DNA of 64,000 nt, taken from contig NVTE01000009.1 in assembly GCA_002401455.1 (NCBI GenBank), positions 1 through 64,000 of the forward strand, given 5' to 3'. Below, piece by piece: positions 10,573 to 42,620 of this stretch (position 1 is its first letter; the number at the start of each line of letters is the position of its first letter). This DNA comes from Alphaproteobacteria bacterium. GTDB lineage: Bacteria > Pseudomonadota > Alphaproteobacteria > Sphingomonadales > Emcibacteraceae. Made by a program: the position numbers and the translations under genes. The notes under the pieces were generated by a model, which was given only the letters and a program-made list of their open reading frames with translations, did not search any database and had not been told where the DNA came from.

Positions 10573-11073
10573 CTAACGGTTTTCTTTCATCAGGCGGCCT
10601 TTTTCCCGGTTCCAGTCGCGCTCTTTTTCCGTCGCCCGCTTGTCATGGGATTTTTTTCCGCTGGCTAGGCCGATCTTGACCTTAACCCGGTTCTTGGCAT
10701 TGAAATAGATCGACAGCGGCACCAGGGTCTTGCCCTTGCGCTGAATGGCGGCGGCAATCTTGTTGACCTCACGCCGATGGAGCAATAATTTACGGGGACG
10801 ACGGGCTTCATGATTGAAGCGGTTGCCCATCGCATATTCCTTGATATAGGCATTGATCAGGAAGATCTCGCCCATCTTGGCCTCGGCAAAGGCATCGGTA
10901 ATATTGACCTCGCCGGCCCGCAGGGATTTCACTTCGGTGCCGGTCAGCACAATCCCGGCCTCAAAATCCTCCTCGATAAAATAATTATAACGGGCCTTGC
11001 GATTGAGCGCGATGGTCCGGCTGCCGCTCTTTGATTTATCCTCGGTTTTTGATTTTGATTTTGATTTTGCCAT
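10573..11073 (-). CDS. smpB: SsrA-binding protein SmpB
   Basis: [43 protein letters not shown] ... [25 protein letters not shown]. Confidence 0.97.
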
Positions 11074-11076
11074 GTC

Positions 11077-11955
11077 TTAGGTCAGCAATCCAGCTTTGAC
11101 CATGGCGGCCCGGATCAGGTCTTTGGTCTCCTCAGAAATCGCTACCATCGGCAGGCGCATCTCCGCCGAACAAATGCCCAACAGTTCCATGGCATATTTC
11201 ACTGGACCCGGATTTGGTTCAACAAACAAGGCATCATGAAGGTCGGTCAGCCGGTCCTGAATCTCGAGCGCAGCCTTGAAATCACCGGCCAGGCACAGAT
11301 TCTGAAAATCAGATACCAATTTTGGTGCCACGTTCGAGGCCACTGAAATACAGCCAACCCCGCCGTGGGCATTGAAGCCGAGCGCAGTCTGGTCTTCGCC
11401 GGACAATTGAATGAAGTCTTCGCCCATGGCCACCCGCTGTAGCGGCACCCGGGCCACATTACCCGTCGCATCCTTGACCCCGACAACATTTTTCAGCTCG
11501 CGAAAACAGCGGGCCATGGTGTCCACAGACATGTCAACCACTGACCGGCCGGGGATATTATAGATCACCAGCGGTAGATCGACCGCGTCATTCAGAGCTT
11601 TGAAATGCTGAAACAGGCCTTCCTGATTGGGCTTGTTGTAATAGGGCATGGCGATCAGGGCCGCATCGGCCCCCGCGTCCTTGGCATGTTGAAGCAGGCT
11701 GATGGCTTCACTGGTAGAGTTTGATCCGCAGCCAGCAATGACCGGTACCCGTCCCGCTGTCTCCTCGATGCAGATTTCCGTGACCCGGTTATGCTCCTCA
11801 TGATTAAGGGTCGGCGATTCTCCGGTCGTACCGCAGGGCACCAGGCCATGGGTCCCCTGTTCAATCTGCCAGTTCACCAGCGCCCGAAACGCCTTCTCAT
11901 CAACCTGTCCATTGGCGAACGGGGTAACAAGGGCAGTAATCGATCCTCTTAACAT
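11077..11955 (-). CDS. dapA: 4-hydroxy-tetrahydrodipicolinate synthase
   Basis: [22 protein letters not shown] ... [15 protein letters not shown] ... [16 protein letters not shown]. Confidence 0.97.
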
Positions 11956-12071
11956 AGGGGAACTCCTTAAATATTTGAATTTTATGCAGGCAAAATAGTC
12001 TGCCTTTGAGCCGACTGCAAGCCATGAATTGACAAAGGAGACGCTTTATTTACTTAAGGTGCCTTTTGGGC

Positions 12072-12100
12072 AAAAAAAAGGCGGGAAAAACCTCCCGCCT
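12072..12100 (-). terminator. Rho-independent terminator of the EF-hand protein gene
   Basis: Minus strand AGGCGGGAGGTTTTTCCCGCCTTTTTTTTG. Confidence 0.8.
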
Positions 12101-12132
12101 GATCTCTTTATATAGGAACTGAATAAAGGGCC

Positions 12133-12642
12133 TTAGTTCCGGTCGCCCATTTTATGCATTTTTTTCATTTTATGCATTTTTGTGGCCCGGTCCTCCTTAT
12201 TCAGAACCCCGTCATCATTATGGTCCATGCGGATGAAATTGCGGTCACCCTTGGCCTCGAATTCAGCCTTGGAAATCTTGCCATCGCCATTGGCATCCAT
12301 TTTATCGAAATGTTTCTGGACTTTTTTCTGCTTGGCCAACTCTTTGGCTTTTTGGTGCTGCTCCTTCATATTCTTTTGAAAGACAGCAAATTCCGCCGCG
12401 TCCAGACTGCCATCGCGATTTTTATCCGCGCCGGAGAAATTCTGGTCGTGGAAAGCCTTGAATTCAGCCTTATCGACAGTGCCGTCGGCATTGGCATCCA
12501 TCAGTTTCAGCATCATATGGTGCTTGCCTTTCATATCCATATCCATTTTGTGCTTCATATGCATGCCGCCTTCGGCAGTTGCCACCGCAGAAAACGACAC
12601 CGCCATTAGGGAAGCCAAAGCGATAAGTGGTAATTTTTTCAT
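12133..12642 (-). CDS. secreted/periplasmic EF-hand calcium-binding protein
   Basis: Start placed at MKKLPLIALASLMAVSFSAVATAEGG (signal peptide); four EF-hand loops: DANADGTVDKAEF, DKNRDGSLDAAEF, DANGDGKISKAEF, DHNDDGVLNKED. Confidence 0.85.
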   Translation of the reverse strand: MKKLPLIALASLMAVSFSAVATAEGGMHMKHKMDMDMKGKHHMMLKLMDANADGTVDKAEFKAFHDQNFSGADKNRDGSLDAAEFAVFQKNMKEQHQKAKELAKQKKVQKHFDKMDANGDGKISKAEFEAKGDRNFIRMDHNDDGVLNKEDRATKMHKMKKMHKMGDRN

Positions 12643-34557: not shown

Positions 34558-34959
34558 ATGGTGATGAATAATTATACCCCCCAACAGCAAAAGATGCTGC
34601 GCCAGGCTCAGGCCGTCATTGATGACGCGAGTGATACCTATGATGAAATATTAAAGGCCCATATTCGGGACTTGAAAGAATCACTGGCCGAAGGAAACCT
34701 GACTGAGTCCTGTCGGGTCTGCTACCGCATCCAGACCCAGGCCACCACATTTGGCTGGCCCCTGGCCTCCGAGATCGCCGGCTGGTTCAAAAGGCTGCTG
34801 AATAGCCAACAGGACAAGGGGCTGGATTCTGCCATCAACGGTTTATTCCTCGACAGTTTAGACATCCTCATCACAGAAGACCTGAAATCCGACTCCCAAG
34901 CTGCCATCAAACTCTGCCTTCACATCGAGTCTGAACTGAAAGCCACAGAAAGTCCTTAA
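34558..34959 (+). CDS. hypothetical helical protein, possibly a degenerate Hpt-like partner of the response regulator
   Basis: 133 aa, starts immediately after the response-regulator stop; CYRIQTQATTFGWPLASEIA resembles an Hpt core with His replaced. Confidence 0.55.
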   Translation: MVMNNYTPQQQKMLRQAQAVIDDASDTYDEILKAHIRDLKESLAEGNLTESCRVCYRIQTQATTFGWPLASEIAGWFKRLLNSQQDKGLDSAINGLFLDSLDILITEDLKSDSQAAIKLCLHIESELKATESP

Positions 34960-35205
34960 CATGAGCCAGAAAGGACCGGCTTTATTCGTAGTGCAACGCC
35001 TGAATATGGTCCGGCTCTTCATCATTTTACGTCTCCGATTCTATACTCGGACACCCCTTAACAGACTGCACAGTTTTTTAGAACCACCTTAAAGTTAATG
35101 AACCAGCCCCCCCCCTGGACAGGTGTTTGCTTGACTTTGTTATTGAGAACAATATCTTGGTCATATTAGCTGAGCAGATAGGATTGTATAATCCGCTTTG
35201 TTGTA

Positions 35206-35886
35206 ATGATGTCAGGGATATATAATATTGTGAGATTTGAATTTAACAATTCACCGTGGAAGATTGCCAATCCACAGCAAAAGAGATTTCTGGGAAAAGC
35301 CATTCCCCCGTTGCCCAATATGCCGAAGGAGGTTGCCCCTCCCGTTTTCTGGACTTGTACGCCGCCGTTTTACCAAAATGTAAATCTCATCTGCATCAGC
35401 CATAATCTGGGCGAGGATGAGAAAATAAATCTATATTATCTTCAGCATTATTCACCAGAAGATAAAGAAAATACCTTTCATTTCCTCAATGGGCTTTCAC
35501 ATCCTATTCACGTCCTTAATTCAAAAATATCTCTTATTCTTGCCCCCGAACATATTCTGGATTATCTCTGCTTTTTTTGCTTTTTTGTTCATGGTGAATC
35601 AGGCCCGTTTTATGTTTTGCGGAACAGAGAAGACCCCGCAATCCCGCAATCCATATGGGCGGGAGATTTTTTCGGTTGTGATTCCCTGAATGATTTATTC
35701 AGAGAACCCTGTGTCACGGTTGCCAATCCTGAAGGAAGCACCCGATATTCTACCTTAATATATTACAGCAACGTGCTATCCATAGCCGACTTTTCTATTC
35801 AGCCCGATGGTATGATTATGATGGAAGAAAGTGAAAGCCTCCTTTCTGACCTGCCGTTTACCCTAAATATTTCCCTAAAAATTTAA
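35206..35886 (+). CDS. uncharacterised protein homologous to the C-terminal domain of the downstream VirD4-like ATPase
   Basis: 226 aa; PPFYQ, LAPEHILDYLCFFC and REPCVTVANPEGSTRYSTLIYYSNVLS match PPFYQ, LRPKHIADYLAFYC and KEPHVLEVRKNSEGITDYYRVNATVLC of the next gene. Confidence 0.75.
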   Translation: MMSGIYNIVRFEFNNSPWKIANPQQKRFLGKAIPPLPNMPKEVAPPVFWTCTPPFYQNVNLICISHNLGEDEKINLYYLQHYSPEDKENTFHFLNGLSHPIHVLNSKISLILAPEHILDYLCFFCFFVHGESGPFYVLRNREDPAIPQSIWAGDFFGCDSLNDLFREPCVTVANPEGSTRYSTLIYYSNVLSIADFSIQPDGMIMMEESESLLSDLPFTLNISLKI

Positions 35887-35899
35887 AAAGGAACGACCC

Positions 35900-38053
35900 G
35901 TGACACGAAAAGTATCAAGCAGTTTACCGGATCAGGGATTATTGGTTGGCTGGTCACTGGAAACGGTCGCCCGTCAGAAAATATTTGGCTTTCATTCGGA
36001 ACGGGATTATCAGAAACCAAGCCAGTTTCTGGAACCTATTCTTCAGGAGGAAGAAGGTCATCTGATAACCATCGCCCCCACGGGCACAGGAAAGGGCGTA
36101 AGCTCCATCATTCCTGCCTTGCTGCGCTACCCCGGCCCAATCGTTGTTATCGACCCAAAGGGTGAGAATTACGCGGTAACCGCCCGCAGGCGTCGGGAAA
36201 TGGGACAAAAAGTTGTGGTATTAGACCCGTTTGAAATAACCGATGCCTCCCGTCTGGACAGGGCAAGATTTAACCCGCTGGATTTTATTTCCCCAACGTC
36301 CGATAGCCTCATTGAAGATACGGAAATGCTCGCCGCCATACTGGCAGGGGAAGAATTGGCAACCGCCCGCGAGGTCTTCTGGCCACGAATGGGCTATCAG
36401 TTGATCGTTTTTATTATTCTTTATCAATTCAGAACACTTCCGCCGGAAAAATGGACCCTGCTGGAGACCCGACGAATCATTGGTCAAGGGCCGGAAGCCT
36501 TGGGCAAAATTGGTGAGGAGGTCATGAAAGGAAATGATGAAATATTAAAAAGTCAGGCTGGTCTGGTCTTAAATCCTGCTGACAGCACTGTTGGCGGTTA
36601 CTGGGCCCATGCCCAGTCTATGTTGAGCTTTCTCAAAGGCCGCCTGCTTGAGAAGAACCTGATTAAGTCAACCTTTTCACTGGATGACATTGTTGAAAAC
36701 AAACCAATCACGCTATATCTGGTGATCCCGCCTGAAAAACTCACATCACATAAGGCCTTGATGCGATTATGGTTGAGTACAATTGTCTCTGCCATCAGTT
36801 GCCGAACAATTCGTCCAAAAACACCAACGTTGATGATATTGGATGAGGCCGCCCAGCTTGGCCATATGCCTCAAATCGAAGACGCCATCACCCTGTTGAG
36901 AGGATACGGCGTGAAAGTGTGGAGTTTCTGGCAGGACCTGTCACAAATAAAAAAACTCTATCCCGTCAGTTGGGAAACCATCCTTAACAACTGTGCCGTA
37001 CAACAATTTTTTGGCCAGACGACGGAACTTGCGGCCCGGGCAGTCCATGATGTGAGCGGCTATGGCTCAGCGGGAGAAATCCGACGCCTTGACCGTAGCG
37101 AAATGGTATTAAGTATCGGCGGGGACAGTCCTGTCATTGTGCAAAAGCCAAATTATCTGGAGGATGAGCCCTTCAAAGGTTTATTTGACCAAAACCCTTT
37201 TTACCGTGATGCAGAAGACGTCAAACAGATCGGACGGTCTCAACGTATTTTCCGACGCCATGACCCGTTAGCCAAATTGAGGCGACAGGGACCACGAAAA
37301 GGCCGAACCGGAACCTCTTATCCCTCAATAACCAGAGAGGCGGATCTGGACCGCCGTCTGCATAGTCATCCGATTTCTGCTGAACGCTGGCAAGAGGTCC
37401 CCGAGGATGAGAAGGCATCCCTTTTGGAACAAGTGGAGCAACTCTATTGGATGCCTTATTTTTCCGATGGGGAGAATGTGACCCTGCGGTGCTGGCAGCC
37501 GCCCTTTTATCAGGACGCCTGGCATTTTGAACTTCGGCTCGAAATTGATGGCCAGACAAAATTTGGATATTTTCTGATACAGGAAGATAAAATATATCCC
37601 TTCACCGGCGGCGAGATGGAGATCATAGAATTAAACAATGAGCTAACCTTAGATTTAAGGCCGAAACATATTGCCGACTATCTGGCCTTTTACTGTGCAA
37701 ACTACATCAGTCCCTACGGGCGGTTATTTTTAGTGGACCATCCCGATGAACTGGTTTTAGTTGAGGATGTGGATAAAGCCTATTATCAGGCCATCTGTGA
37801 CGAGCTTAAGGAACCCCATGTCCTTGAGGTACGCAAAAATTCCGAGGGCATAACGGATTACTACCGGGTGAATGCGACGGTCCTGTGTGGGGATACCCTG
37901 TCCCGTATTACCTTTGGCGTTCATACGTCAGGATGTGTGGACATGGACGAAATAGAAGTCCTCTTTGCAGAAGTTCCAACCCTCAGCCAAAATTTTCTTA
38001 GAATCGCCGACCTGATCTGGCGGGAGAAAGCCGACACGAATAATACCGTTTAG
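35900..38053 (+). CDS. soluble VirD4/TraG-like (type IV coupling protein-like) ATPase with novel C-terminal domain
   Basis: 717 aa; Walker A ITIAPTGTGKGVSSIIPALLRYPGPIVVIDPKGENYAVTARRR, LMILDEAAQLGHMPQIEDAITLLRGYGVKVWSFWQDLSQIKKLYP; no N-terminal TM helices. Confidence 0.88.
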   Translation: MTRKVSSSLPDQGLLVGWSLETVARQKIFGFHSERDYQKPSQFLEPILQEEEGHLITIAPTGTGKGVSSIIPALLRYPGPIVVIDPKGENYAVTARRRREMGQKVVVLDPFEITDASRLDRARFNPLDFISPTSDSLIEDTEMLAAILAGEELATAREVFWPRMGYQLIVFIILYQFRTLPPEKWTLLETRRIIGQGPEALGKIGEEVMKGNDEILKSQAGLVLNPADSTVGGYWAHAQSMLSFLKGRLLEKNLIKSTFSLDDIVENKPITLYLVIPPEKLTSHKALMRLWLSTIVSAISCRTIRPKTPTLMILDEAAQLGHMPQIEDAITLLRGYGVKVWSFWQDLSQIKKLYPVSWETILNNCAVQQFFGQTTELAARAVHDVSGYGSAGEIRRLDRSEMVLSIGGDSPVIVQKPNYLEDEPFKGLFDQNPFYRDAEDVKQIGRSQRIFRRHDPLAKLRRQGPRKGRTGTSYPSITREADLDRRLHSHPISAERWQEVPEDEKASLLEQVEQLYWMPYFSDGENVTLRCWQPPFYQDAWHFELRLEIDGQTKFGYFLIQEDKIYPFTGGEMEIIELNNELTLDLRPKHIADYLAFYCANYISPYGRLFLVDHPDELVLVEDVDKAYYQAICDELKEPHVLEVRKNSEGITDYYRVNATVLCGDTLSRITFGVHTSGCVDMDEIEVLFAEVPTLSQNFLRIADLIWREKADTNNTV

Positions 38054-38075
38054 GGACCAGAATTTACTCCCTGCA

Positions 38076-41000
38076 TTACTTAAAAGATGTCAGATTTTTC
38101 CTGATTTGCGCGGCATCCAGAGGTTTGTCGATGGCATCCAAAAATGCGGCGTAGAGGTCTGTCACCACGGCAAGTTTTGGTCTAGAGGTATTTTTATCTT
38201 TATAGATGTTATCATAGCTCAGCACAATCAGACCCAGAGCCAAGTCCGGCTTCCCCATCCTGAAATGCAACCATCCTAGCCGGGCTTTCGAAATTTCCAG
38301 TGCAAAAACATAATCGCCTTTATTTTCCTCTGAAAATCGGTCAATTGCCGCTTGAATATGCGTTAAGGCCTGATCATAATTCCCTATTTCACAATGGGCG
38401 AAACCCAGTTTGCTGCGCAAATAAGCGACACTGATTATGGAAAGTTCACCCTTCTTTTCATAGGCCTGCATAGCTTTCTCACAGATGGCTATGGCGTCAT
38501 CAAATCGTTTTTGGAGATTCAAATTATGGACAAGACTATCAAGAAGAGTAAGGCTAGTTTCATGATCATATCCCAATTCCTCGCCATATAACGCGTAGGA
38601 TTCTCTGATATTCTCTTCTGATTCTTCTATAAGTCCCTGATTTTCCAAACAATTTGCCAAGTTCCACAATAGTTTAGCACGCCACTGAATTCCTAGGACC
38701 TCACGCGCCTTGCCACTCCCCAGAAGGTAATTCAATAACGGTATCGCATCTATCCAACGCTGTTGTTCCATGAGGTTGTCGGAGAGTCTAATAACAGCAA
38801 AAAGGGTGTTTTTATGACCAACCCCAACAGCCTCTGTTGACTGCTCTATGGACTTATGATGATATTTTTCTGCCTCCAGATATCTTTTTTGGTGATCAAG
38901 GTTGATCGCCAGTTCTCGCGTTGTCCAGATGACAAACTCTTCCTCAGGCTGTTCTTCCTGATCAAAAATCTGAAAAGACCGTCGACAATATTTCTCAGCA
39001 ACTTCATATTGTCCCAAATTCTGATGAATGGTTGCAAGACGGTTTAACTGACGAAGACAATTGCGGTGATTAAGGCCATTGGCCTTCTCGGCATGGTGTA
39101 AACTGTTTAAATAAAAGGACTCTGCGACTTTATACTTCTCCTGATGAAAAAGTGATTCTGCAAGAAAAAAGTCCAGATCAACCGCGTCACCTTCTGAGAT
39201 ATCGATGTCTATTTTCATCATTTTCCGGAAAAGGTTTTCACTGTCGGCGTGTTTACCTTGAGGAGTCAGGCTAAGGGCTAATCTAAATATGGCCCAATAG
39301 ATTCTGTCGGGCTGTTCGGCAAAAAAATCTTCACATGTGGCCAGAGCTTTTCTGAATAATATCTCTGCCTCACCATATCTTTCCTGCTCACAAAGAAATT
39401 CGCCATGATCGAATTGGGACATTATTGATCCCGTGCCGTTTTTAATTGATCTGCTGCCGTTTTTATTCTCCGCTTTGTCAACAACAGCTAAAAGGCGATT
39501 GTAATAATCTTCTGCTTCTTCCAGCCGTTCCACTTTCTGCAACAGCTTGGCAAATAGATAAAGATGATTTACAGTATTTTCATGGTCCGGACCGTATTTT
39601 TTTTCAAAGATAGCAAGGCTTTCCCGCAGAAGTTCTTCGCCCTCATCATACTTCCCAAGCTTGATAACATTGATTGCTAAATTTAATATAGATTGCGATG
39701 TTCCGGCATGCTCCCGACCAAAAACACCTTCACCAATGCGCAGGCTTTCGCGGAATCTAATTTCGGCACTTTTAATCTTTCCAAGCGCGACCAGGGTATG
39801 GGCCACAAGACTGTTCGCATCTGCCATTTTATCACTCTCAGGGCCATAAAGACGTTTGATTTTCTCTTCATAATCCTTACTGATCGCGAAAGATTCCTCA
39901 TATTTCCCAAGCGCAGAAACCGCTTGTGAGAGATAATTTTGAGCTTTGAGAAGTTTGGGATGGGTTTCTTCAACCACCCCCTGTAATATTTCCATACTTT
40001 GTCTGAACAGACTTTCTGCTTCTCCATATTTTTCTTGATCATACAAACAATCTGCAAGATCAATCAGCAAAACGCCCCCAGCGTAGGAGGTCAATTTATT
40101 TTGACTCTCAATGACTTTAAAACTACGTCTTAAATCATTTTCTGCCTCCAGATAATCACACATAGCATTTAAAGCGATACCACGCGCCTGCAGGGCCTTC
40201 GCCAACAGCATATCGTCCCCTAGTCCTTGGGCAAGCTCTACGGCTTGTTCGGCAAATTTTTTCATTAGTGAATAATCAGAGTCCATTCCTGCGGCTCTTA
40301 CATTTAAACAGAAACCTATAATACGGACCTTTTGAGACTCACTAACCTCTCTTTCCATCAGGTGACTTTCCAATGTCCCCAGGACGGTTTTCAACATGTA
40401 GAAATTATACTCCCCCTCGAAAAATTCCATCGCCCGCAAAATGGGCTGGAAATATTGACTATCATTGAGCGCGATCGCCTGTTGAATCGCCTGCTCCAAG
40501 GCAGAAATAGTTTCATCAGAGAGATGCATTTCTTCGGATGATCTGAATTGACCCAAAAAATACTCAACATAGAACTTATGGCTTTCGCGCTTCTCATCAT
40601 CGGAAATAAGGCTGCTAACAACATCACGAACCAAACCGTTCAAGGTATAAAAACCCGCCATATCCGCGATAGGAGAGAAAATAGACAGTTCTACAATATC
40701 GTTGAATTCCCCGTCCGGAATGCCAATTTTAAATCGCCCGATTACAGCTTCTGCAATCTTTTTATTGAAACGATCAAGGGGGGACAGGCGAATAAGCAGC
40801 CATTTCATGCGTTCATCATAATCCCGGATAAAACGGGTAACCAGTTCATGTGTGATGGCATTGCGGCCACTGCCCTCTACTTTGAAATCATCCGGAACCG
40901 GTGGTTGCTGCGTATTGTATTTTAAATGCAGATAATGGTCCGCATGAAGGTCCAATAAAAAAGGATGCGCCGTTGCGATGGTATCGCCCGCATCTTTTAT

Positions 41001-42044
41001 ACTGGCACTCTTTACGATCTCCGCCCGGATGTCTTGTTCTTCAATGGGGATTAGGCTCAAGAAATGATCGGCATCCTCCGCCGCCAACCCGTCCAAGGCA
41101 TGATGAGCATCCACCATATCTTCGGTCCAGTCGTCATCCAGTACGGCCCAATGGAGCTTCTCCCGCGAGAAAAACACAAACAGGGCGTTCTTGACCAACA
41201 TGACCAATTCTTTAATGGCGCTATCCACAGGATGTTTTCTTAATTTCAGATTTGTCGGCTGGTCTTTCCACAGAATCTCATATTCATCAATGAAGATAAC
41301 AATCTTCTGTTTCGCTTCCTGTAGCCCCTGAAAGCCACCGGCCACCCGTGCGTTTTGGTAACGCCTGAGGTCCTGCGCCAGAAAATAGGGCAATAACTCT
41401 TCCACCTCCGAGCCCGGGATGATGTCTACACTATTGGGCTTTTGCAACCTGGAAAGTTCAGCAAATAATTTTTGCGTAATTATCCGGTTGCCCTTTTTAA
41501 CGACCCATCGTCCGCCTTTGGCCAGTAATGCGCCGACACCGGGCAGTCCGGCAAAAAGTTCAACAACCAAATCTCCACCCGCTTCGGCCACATTGGCGAA
41601 AAAATCTTCCCCCCGTGCGAACAGTCTTTTGACCTTGTCCGGTTGGGCTTGCTCGGCAAAGGATTTTTCCCAAAAAACCGCAAAAGCAATGTCAAACATG
41701 GCAAAGCTGATGTCATGCCTTTTGGCAAAATTATTGCGTAACCGCAGCATAACTTCCCACGCGGCGGCCTGGGCATTACCCCGCAGGTCAACATGGGCGG
41801 AGATAACATCGGCAAAGAGGTCTTTATCTTCGGGTTTAATATGTTTCAGGGATAAATTTAAGGCTTTGCACAGGGCCGTTTTCCCCTGACCGCCAACACC
41901 GTGATAAACAAGAATCTTAACTTTATCTCCCTTTATCTCAGCCAGCCGTTCGCGAAATAATTTGCGCGGCCCTTCCCGGTCAGTAAAGAGGTCCTCTGCC
42001 GGTGGTTTTTTATCTCGTGTGAGATACTTGGAACGTGGCGGCAT
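38076..42044 (-). CDS. STAND-type (NB-ARC/NACHT-like) ATPase with long tetratricopeptide repeat array
   Basis: Start refined to MPPRSKYLTRD (GAGGAG upstream; the longer ORF starts at 42107). Walker A YHGVGGQGKTALCK, Walker B KIVIFIDEYEILW, then many TPR-like repeats (e.g. EEAEDYYNRLLAVVDKAE, GEAEILFRKALATCEDFF). Confidence 0.82.
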   Translation of the reverse strand: MPPRSKYLTRDKKPPAEDLFTDREGPRKLFRERLAEIKGDKVKILVYHGVGGQGKTALCKALNLSLKHIKPEDKDLFADVISAHVDLRGNAQAAAWEVMLRLRNNFAKRHDISFAMFDIAFAVFWEKSFAEQAQPDKVKRLFARGEDFFANVAEAGGDLVVELFAGLPGVGALLAKGGRWVVKKGNRIITQKLFAELSRLQKPNSVDIIPGSEVEELLPYFLAQDLRRYQNARVAGGFQGLQEAKQKIVIFIDEYEILWKDQPTNLKLRKHPVDSAIKELVMLVKNALFVFFSREKLHWAVLDDDWTEDMVDAHHALDGLAAEDADHFLSLIPIEEQDIRAEIVKSASIKDAGDTIATAHPFLLDLHADHYLHLKYNTQQPPVPDDFKVEGSGRNAITHELVTRFIRDYDERMKWLLIRLSPLDRFNKKIAEAVIGRFKIGIPDGEFNDIVELSIFSPIADMAGFYTLNGLVRDVVSSLISDDEKRESHKFYVEYFLGQFRSSEEMHLSDETISALEQAIQQAIALNDSQYFQPILRAMEFFEGEYNFYMLKTVLGTLESHLMEREVSESQKVRIIGFCLNVRAAGMDSDYSLMKKFAEQAVELAQGLGDDMLLAKALQARGIALNAMCDYLEAENDLRRSFKVIESQNKLTSYAGGVLLIDLADCLYDQEKYGEAESLFRQSMEILQGVVEETHPKLLKAQNYLSQAVSALGKYEESFAISKDYEEKIKRLYGPESDKMADANSLVAHTLVALGKIKSAEIRFRESLRIGEGVFGREHAGTSQSILNLAINVIKLGKYDEGEELLRESLAIFEKKYGPDHENTVNHLYLFAKLLQKVERLEEAEDYYNRLLAVVDKAENKNGSRSIKNGTGSIMSQFDHGEFLCEQERYGEAEILFRKALATCEDFFAEQPDRIYWAIFRLALSLTPQGKHADSENLFRKMMKIDIDISEGDAVDLDFFLAESLFHQEKYKVAESFYLNSLHHAEKANGLNHRNCLRQLNRLATIHQNLGQYEVAEKYCRRSFQIFDQEEQPEEEFVIWTTRELAINLDHQKRYLEAEKYHHKSIEQSTEAVGVGHKNTLFAVIRLSDNLMEQQRWIDAIPLLNYLLGSGKAREVLGIQWRAKLLWNLANCLENQGLIEESEENIRESYALYGEELGYDHETSLTLLDSLVHNLNLQKRFDDAIAICEKAMQAYEKKGELSIISVAYLRSKLGFAHCEIGNYDQALTHIQAAIDRFSEENKGDYVFALEISKARLGWLHFRMGKPDLALGLIVLSYDNIYKDKNTSRPKLAVVTDLYAAFLDAIDKPLDAAQIRKNLTSFK

Positions 42045-42113
42045 ACTCTCCTCTTTTTCCTGAATAATGTCTTCTAGAAACTTATTGCATGAAGCAAGGG
42101 GCTGCAAGTGTTA

Positions 42114-42564
42114 ATAAAGCGCCATTGCTTTTGATATTGTCTATGCCGTTGATCCAGATGAACCATATATGGTTCGGGTGGCCAAGACAGCGATCAACTG
42201 GGGCTATACCAATTGGAAGGGTATGACCTTTGGGCTGATTTTCGCTGCCGCCTTTCTGGCATTTCTATTATTATTGCTAAAATGGGGACGGTCACGTAAT
42301 CCGATACTCAACAGTCTTAAGGGGCTGGTGACGGGTGTCCCGTTATGCGTTTGTGTCAACTGCACGATGCCGATTGCGTTTGATGTGATTGTGGTGGCCA
42401 CCCTGATTGCTATTGGGATGCCGGTTGGGTTGGCCATGACCCTGCTGTTTTCACTGGATATTTTCAATATTTATCCTGCCATGGTCATTGGGCAGTATAT
42501 CTCCCGCAAGCTTTCGCTTTTTTTGCTGGTAAGCGTGGGGAGTGGGGCGAGTGACCGGGATTGA
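42114..42564 (+). pseudogene. truncated integral-membrane permease fragment next to tRNA-His
   Basis: Open frame without an obvious start, SAIAFDIVYAVDPDEPYMVRVAKTAINWGYTNWKGMTFGLIFAAAFLAFLLLLLKW...GLVTGVPLCVCVNCTMPIAFDV...; 3' end runs into tRNA-His. Confidence 0.55.
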
Positions 42565-42620
42565 ACCGGCGACTTCCAGAATCACAATCTGGCGCTCTAA
42601 CCAACTGAGCTACACCCGCC
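42543..42620 (-). tRNA. tRNA-His(GTG)
   Basis: Minus strand G-GCGGGTG-TAGCTCAGTTGGTTAGAGC-GCCAGATTGTGATTCTGG-AAGTC-GCCGGTTCAATCCCGGT-CACTCGC-C-CCA; anticodon GTG, encoded CCA, extra G(-1). Confidence 0.96.

Follow-up and report, generated by a model that had tools for sequence, protein, structure and literature searches.

The 64,000-nucleotide stretch of DNA examined in the present study (hereafter the window) carries an accessory island with genes for a 226-aa protein, a VirD4/TraG-like ATPase and, convergent to the latter, a STAND-like ATPase (Table 1). The initial annotation had described three AT-rich genes next to tRNA-His, and they lie where it placed them, in the stretch of lowest GC content in the window (0.457, compared with 0.501 to 0.581 in every other 7.6-kb stretch). 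The GC3 of the island genes is likewise low, at 0.41 to 0.51 versus 0.55 to 0.75 for the other long genes of the window. In five genomes of the same genus that lack the island, the 133-aa gene is found near tRNA-His, followed by glnB and/or glnA, indicating an insertion of ~7.6 kb in the window; the uninterrupted site in relatives is bordered by the same tRNA-His. This insertion spot looks variable, since in L166, one of the five genomes, a tRNA-Gly separates the 133-aa gene from tRNA-His, and past tRNA-His the gene content of a further relative (G013) differs. Searches of the island for an integrase, an attachment repeat or a duplicated tRNA end were negative, and PADLOC 2.0.0 returned weak partial matches only and no complete described anti-phage system. 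At the island edge, a 131-aa membrane ORF overlapping tRNA-His is similar to the last part of an ArsP-type permease (PF03773, E=0.0013, which is below cut-off) and is possibly a gene fragment left there.

Table 1 Features of the island and its borders, in window coordinates
Feature	Position	Strand	Basis or remark
133-aa gene	34558-34959		upstream flank of island
Accessory island (insertion)	34960-42542	.	between 133-aa gene and tRNA-His; ends approximate
Partner protein, 226 aa, free copy of unnamed domain	35206-35886	+	homologous to ATPase C-terminus
Soluble orphan VirD4/TraG-like ATPase, 717 aa	35900-38053	+	GTG start; PF02534, PF12696
Walker A of 717-aa ATPase	36074-36097	+	motif intact
Walker B of 717-aa ATPase	36830-36862	+	motif intact
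Fused C-terminal partner-domain copy in ATPase	37397-38032	+	profile E=2.7e-71 (the profile includes this copy); BLAST match to 226-aa protein
STAND-like ATPase with TPR array, 1322 aa from ATG 42044	38076-42044	-	motifs; TPR_12 E=1.5e-72
Walker B (IVIFIDEYE) of STAND-like ATPase	41277-41303	-	motif reading
P-loop (GVGGQGKT) of STAND-like ATPase	41877-41900	-	motif reading
Permease-like ORF, 131 aa	42169-42564	+	PF03773, below cut-off
tRNA-His	42543-42619	-	ARAGORN; host gene bordering island, likely hotspot

The 717-aa ATPase belongs to the VirD4/TraG superfamily, whose coupling proteins serve as DNA motors in conjugation and type IV secretion. Its nucleotide-binding core matches PF02534 (E=7.1e-55) and PF12696 (4.5e-17), and includes both Walker motifs and a QDLSQ motif. 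The highest 19-residue hydropathy mean is only 1.42, which indicates that the protein has no TM helix, as the initial annotation had stated, and by this measure it lacks the N-terminal membrane anchor of most coupling proteins. Models for VirB4 (PF03135) and relaxase (PF03432), the two searched, had no match in the 69%-complete source assembly; within that assembly no cognate relaxase/VirB machinery was recognised, in line with the earlier statement that no T4SS gene is present. A PDB profile search with the ATPase found Cag5 alone, and viral-contig scans with either the ATPase or the 226-aa protein's domain yielded no relatives. AlphaFold2 predictions from shallow alignments were too poor to use for both (pLDDT of 40 and 48, respectively).

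Homology between the 226-aa protein and the C-terminal part of the ATPase (residues ~500-711) is shown by BLAST, independently of the domain profile (28% identity, E=1e-8), and by a shuffle test, in which the local score was 133, compared with a shuffled mean of 31.8 (z=20.7). The window thus holds one domain twice, free and fused to the motor, referred to below as the partner domain. No Pfam family scores above cut-off for it, and neither NCBIfam nor PDB has a match, a PDB profile search with it having returned chance matches only. The family is present in 26 of 385 alphaproteobacterial genomes; most members are free proteins of ~200-260 aa whose genes adjoin core genes and no coupling-protein gene. 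A total of 45 sequences of the domain were gathered. The residues conserved best in it (Phe-Tyr, Asn, Tyr, Pro and Gly) do not resemble those of a catalytic site, so that a structural or adaptor role would seem more likely. In Sinorhizobium the domain is fused to an nSTAND1-ankyrin protein, and in G214 (L083) its gene overlaps that of a 1414-aa P-loop protein, named by no Pfam model, which we read as STAND-like; the domain therefore connects both to the motor and to STAND-like proteins. A domain tree groups the free copy of the window with the STAND-fused copy of Sinorhizobium (98/91), and most ATPase-adjacent copies elsewhere with weaker support, although these placements are provisional because of long branches. 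The domain was also observed in G300 (L084, 7795-10886) as at least two, perhaps three, tandem copies encoded by separate genes without a coupling protein, and in G118 (L048, 7086-11324) in the middle of a 1412-aa pentapeptide-repeat protein with C-terminal membrane segments, whose gene is located between core genes.

STAND proteins are well known in defence, and the third island gene encodes an ATPase of similar layout. Its open frame (38076-42107, minus strand) would give 1343 aa from a TTG at 42107; the 1322-aa product is more likely because the ATG at 42044 is preceded by a ribosome-binding-like GAGGAG. The protein contains, in order, the P-loop, the Walker B motif, a sensor-1-like FFSRE, a GxP-like AHPFLL and then ten TPR_12 stretches, which is the motif order of STAND ATPases and agrees with the initial annotation of a convergent ~1,320-aa ATPase with Walker A, Walker B and a TPR array. 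Curated STAND, NB-ARC and NACHT models had no match to it, TPR models alone scoring, and we term it STAND-like from its motifs. The first part of the protein had no match outside its own genome among 251 genomes of the order. Its best plasmid relative, from Priestia, is 22% identical and neighbours DUF87, restriction-endonuclease and HEPN genes; a search of phage records with the window protein found no relatives.

A total of 14 independent loci with an orphan VirD4-like ATPase were found, from Alphaproteobacteria, another class of Pseudomonadota, a cyanobacterium and a Bacteroidota plasmid. These are the window, Sinorhizobium (on three plasmids, counted once), Roseobacter MED193 (L003), a Xenococcaceae MAG (L004), a Hyphomicrobiales MAG (L005), L025 (G034), L047 (G147), L049 (G121), the Runella plasmid (L134), L138 (G462), L176 (G896), L177 (G854), L178 (G909, from another class) and L179 (G605). 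When 12 orphan rows were placed in a tree together with 38 other coupling proteins, of which many adjoin relaxases or are membrane-anchored, they formed a single clade (100/99), with a support of 100/97 after four later loci were added; its extent is a lower bound because loci were collected for their resemblance to the window ATPase. A reading of gene lists, with Pfam applied to selected proteins, showed no relaxase or VirB gene near the 14 ATPases. The earlier description of the window ATPase as an orphan is thereby strengthened, as it falls in a distinct TM-less clade without T4SS genes nearby, homologues of which were not seen inside T4SS loci.

Coupling proteins that lack a transmembrane domain, such as TraJ of pIP501, are known, and among such proteins are some that act through small partner proteins (PMC7434980). 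The window ATPase could be a coupling protein still serving a T4SS elsewhere in the cell, with the small protein as a membrane or substrate adaptor; the Sinorhizobium plasmids bearing the orphan are typed conjugative, and VirB4 occurs somewhere in three of the four other orphan-bearing genomes tested. We consider this improbable, given that G462 has no VirB4, that the source assembly, a MAG that is 69% complete, matches neither VirB4 nor relaxase, that relaxases were not seen near any orphan, and that the orphan clade is separate from relaxase-adjacent coupling proteins. Hydropathy also speaks against a membrane adaptor, the L047 partner having no TM segment and the window partner one marginal segment only.

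Six of the 14 loci (the window, Sinorhizobium, L047, L049, L176 and L177, the last found by six-frame search) have a gene for the partner domain directly before the ATPase gene and in the same orientation, with the two frames touching, nearly touching or overlapping. One sub-clade of the ATPase tree (99/97) has the partner upstream in every member. At L049 the pair is broken, by our reading by an insertion sequence. Such a broken copy, together with the low GC, the insertion flanking a tRNA and the truncated permease-like ORF, would suit a degenerating relic of a mobilizable element that happened to persist next to an unrelated STAND gene. This seems very improbable for the window, where all three frames are open, the ATPase motifs are intact and a relaxase, integrase or attachment repeat was not found, and it sits poorly with the recurrence of the upstream partner in divergent lineages.

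Several orphan loci have features of their own. Five (L005, L025, L047, L138 and L176) are solo or nearly solo among ordinary genes, and the L025 protein (10900-12351), alone among core genes, lacks the GK lysine of Walker A, has an altered Walker B and is an apparent pseudo-ATPase. In L004 (9043-11203) the N-terminus of the ATPase resembles that of the upstream gene product (z=6.9), which ends in a ribosomal L7/L12-like domain; this is perhaps a second case of a domain common to motor and partner, although the likeness is only a hint because BLAST gives no match. On the Runella plasmid (NZ_CP031031.1, typed non-mobilizable; L134, 4188-14152), caspase-family and TPR genes surround the ATPase, and the caspases are not counted as immune evidence because their products appear, by our reading, to carry signal peptides. 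In G472, G257 and G378 (L139, L140 and L141), another kind of coupling-protein-like ATPase, which seems to have an N-terminal TM segment and has no evident relaxase, is encoded at a similar core-genome position next to a conserved gene of ~160-180 aa.

A large STAND-like ATPase lies beside the orphan in five of the 14 loci, namely the window and four other lineages: Sinorhizobium (the nSTAND1-ankyrin protein and an NB-ARC/TPR protein), L177 (an AAA_16 protein), and L003 and L179 (P-loop giants without a Pfam match). Partner, ATPase and STAND occur together in the window, Sinorhizobium and L177. The STAND-like proteins of different loci are alike in build and differ in sequence; homology among them was considered and rejected, as they are similar only over their TPRs. 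By our reading, such neighbours are present at 5/14 orphan loci versus 0/15 ordinary coupling-protein loci (p=0.017), whereas under a plain P-loop rule the excess vanishes (4/14 versus 2/15 controls, with 6/28 for free-domain loci). In the window, the match counted under this rule is the STAND itself, the other match there being the repair gene mfd. The association is suggestive only, because the excess depends on how STAND is scored. The VirD4-STAND pairing proposed by the initial annotation is thus upheld as a kind of arrangement that recurs, but the STAND and ATPase of the window are not a fixed pair, since relatives of this STAND were never found beside such an ATPase, and several orphan ATPases stand alone.

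Defence-type neighbours were identified at three of the 14 orphan loci, a count without a matched control for defence genes in general. They comprise a patatin scoring as a CBASS phospholipase effector in Sinorhizobium (7e-47), a MkoA-like (Mokosh-like) helicase in L003 (5e-68), and a Card1-type nuclease (2.8e-35) and a DUF4062 protein in L178, DUF4062 proteins having been reported as antiphage NADases (PMC13174449). The earlier proposal of a candidate defence-like system is in keeping with these genes, but the recurrent companion of the ATPase is the 226-aa protein, which had been left unexplained.

In the main rival explanation, the 226-aa protein and the ATPase are a self-sufficient pair and the STAND is an independent accessory gene in a tRNA-His hotspot, where such genes gather. 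L047 and L176 have the pair without a STAND neighbour, and both the absence of the window STAND from the order and the non-homology of the STAND-like proteins outside their TPRs favour this view. Five lineages with STAND-like neighbours, the domain-STAND fusion of Sinorhizobium and the overlap of the domain gene with the P-loop giant in G214 point the other way, and we regard such independence as possible but on balance unlikely.

Comparison with described systems places the island between several of them. It has the ATPase core, Walker motifs and QDLSQ motif of VirD4/TraG coupling proteins (PF02534), but its ATPase has no relaxase or VirB gene nearby, falls in a separate clade and, like other orphans, carries or accompanies an unnamed domain. 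The closest functional analogue is HerA-DUF4297, in which a ring-type DNA-pumping ATPase of the same FtsK-HerA superfamily assembles with a partner encoded alongside into an active antiphage complex (PMC11291478); the window ATPase is, however, of the VirD4 branch, and its partner domain has no nuclease family match or obvious catalytic residue set. STAND/NLR-like immune ATPases (Avs, bNACHT and LypB) similarly combine a P-loop ATPase with a repeat array, LypB of Caulobacter being an AAA+ plus TPR protein in an alphaproteobacterium (PMC13236601). Unlike these, the window locus has no recognised effector domain or lypA/lypC-like neighbours, and its STAND adjoins a VirD4-like ATPase, a pairing absent from the open-licence literature searched. 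The PADLOC match of the ATPase core to mad8 of MADS is weak (E=2.9e-8, 31.6 bits only), and other MADS genes were not recognised at the locus.

Taken together, our preferred reading, to which we assign a probability of roughly 45%, is that the island was acquired and is a defence-like module around a coupling-protein ATPase no longer tied to conjugation, with an adaptor domain and a STAND sensor. The anchor-free VirD4-like protein would presumably assemble into a ring in the cytoplasm and grip or pump DNA, and the partner domain, free and on the ring, would serve as the adaptor. The STAND-like ATPase may detect a signal of an invader through its repeat array, oligomerise, and switch the ring on either directly or via the adaptor. 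The orphan clade, the upstream partner, the domain's links to motor and STAND-like proteins, the STAND-like and defence-type neighbours, the insertion of foreign composition beside a tRNA and the HerA-DUF4297 precedent (PMC11291478) argue for a defence module. Against it are a window STAND without a relative in the order and unlike those of other loci except in its TPRs, the solo loci, the loss of the excess under the P-loop rule, the lost Walker A lysine of L025, the usual occurrence of the partner domain without an ATPase, and the lack of a complete PADLOC system. A broader version, in which a single domestication turned VirD4-family proteins into cytoplasmic immune motors against incoming DNA, with the adaptor domain plugging different STAND sensors into the ring, is more doubtful.

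TM-less coupling proteins have been described previously (PMC7434980); what seems new is an orphan clade that has a partner domain of its own and lies repeatedly beside STAND-like genes, for which no description was found in the open-licence literature searched. The partner domain represents a concrete unannotated alphaproteobacterial family that is directly testable. The clade itself is anchor-free, has this domain in one branch and lies at times beside immune-type genes. If the reading is true, a motor of conjugation would have been turned to another use, plausibly against invading DNA.
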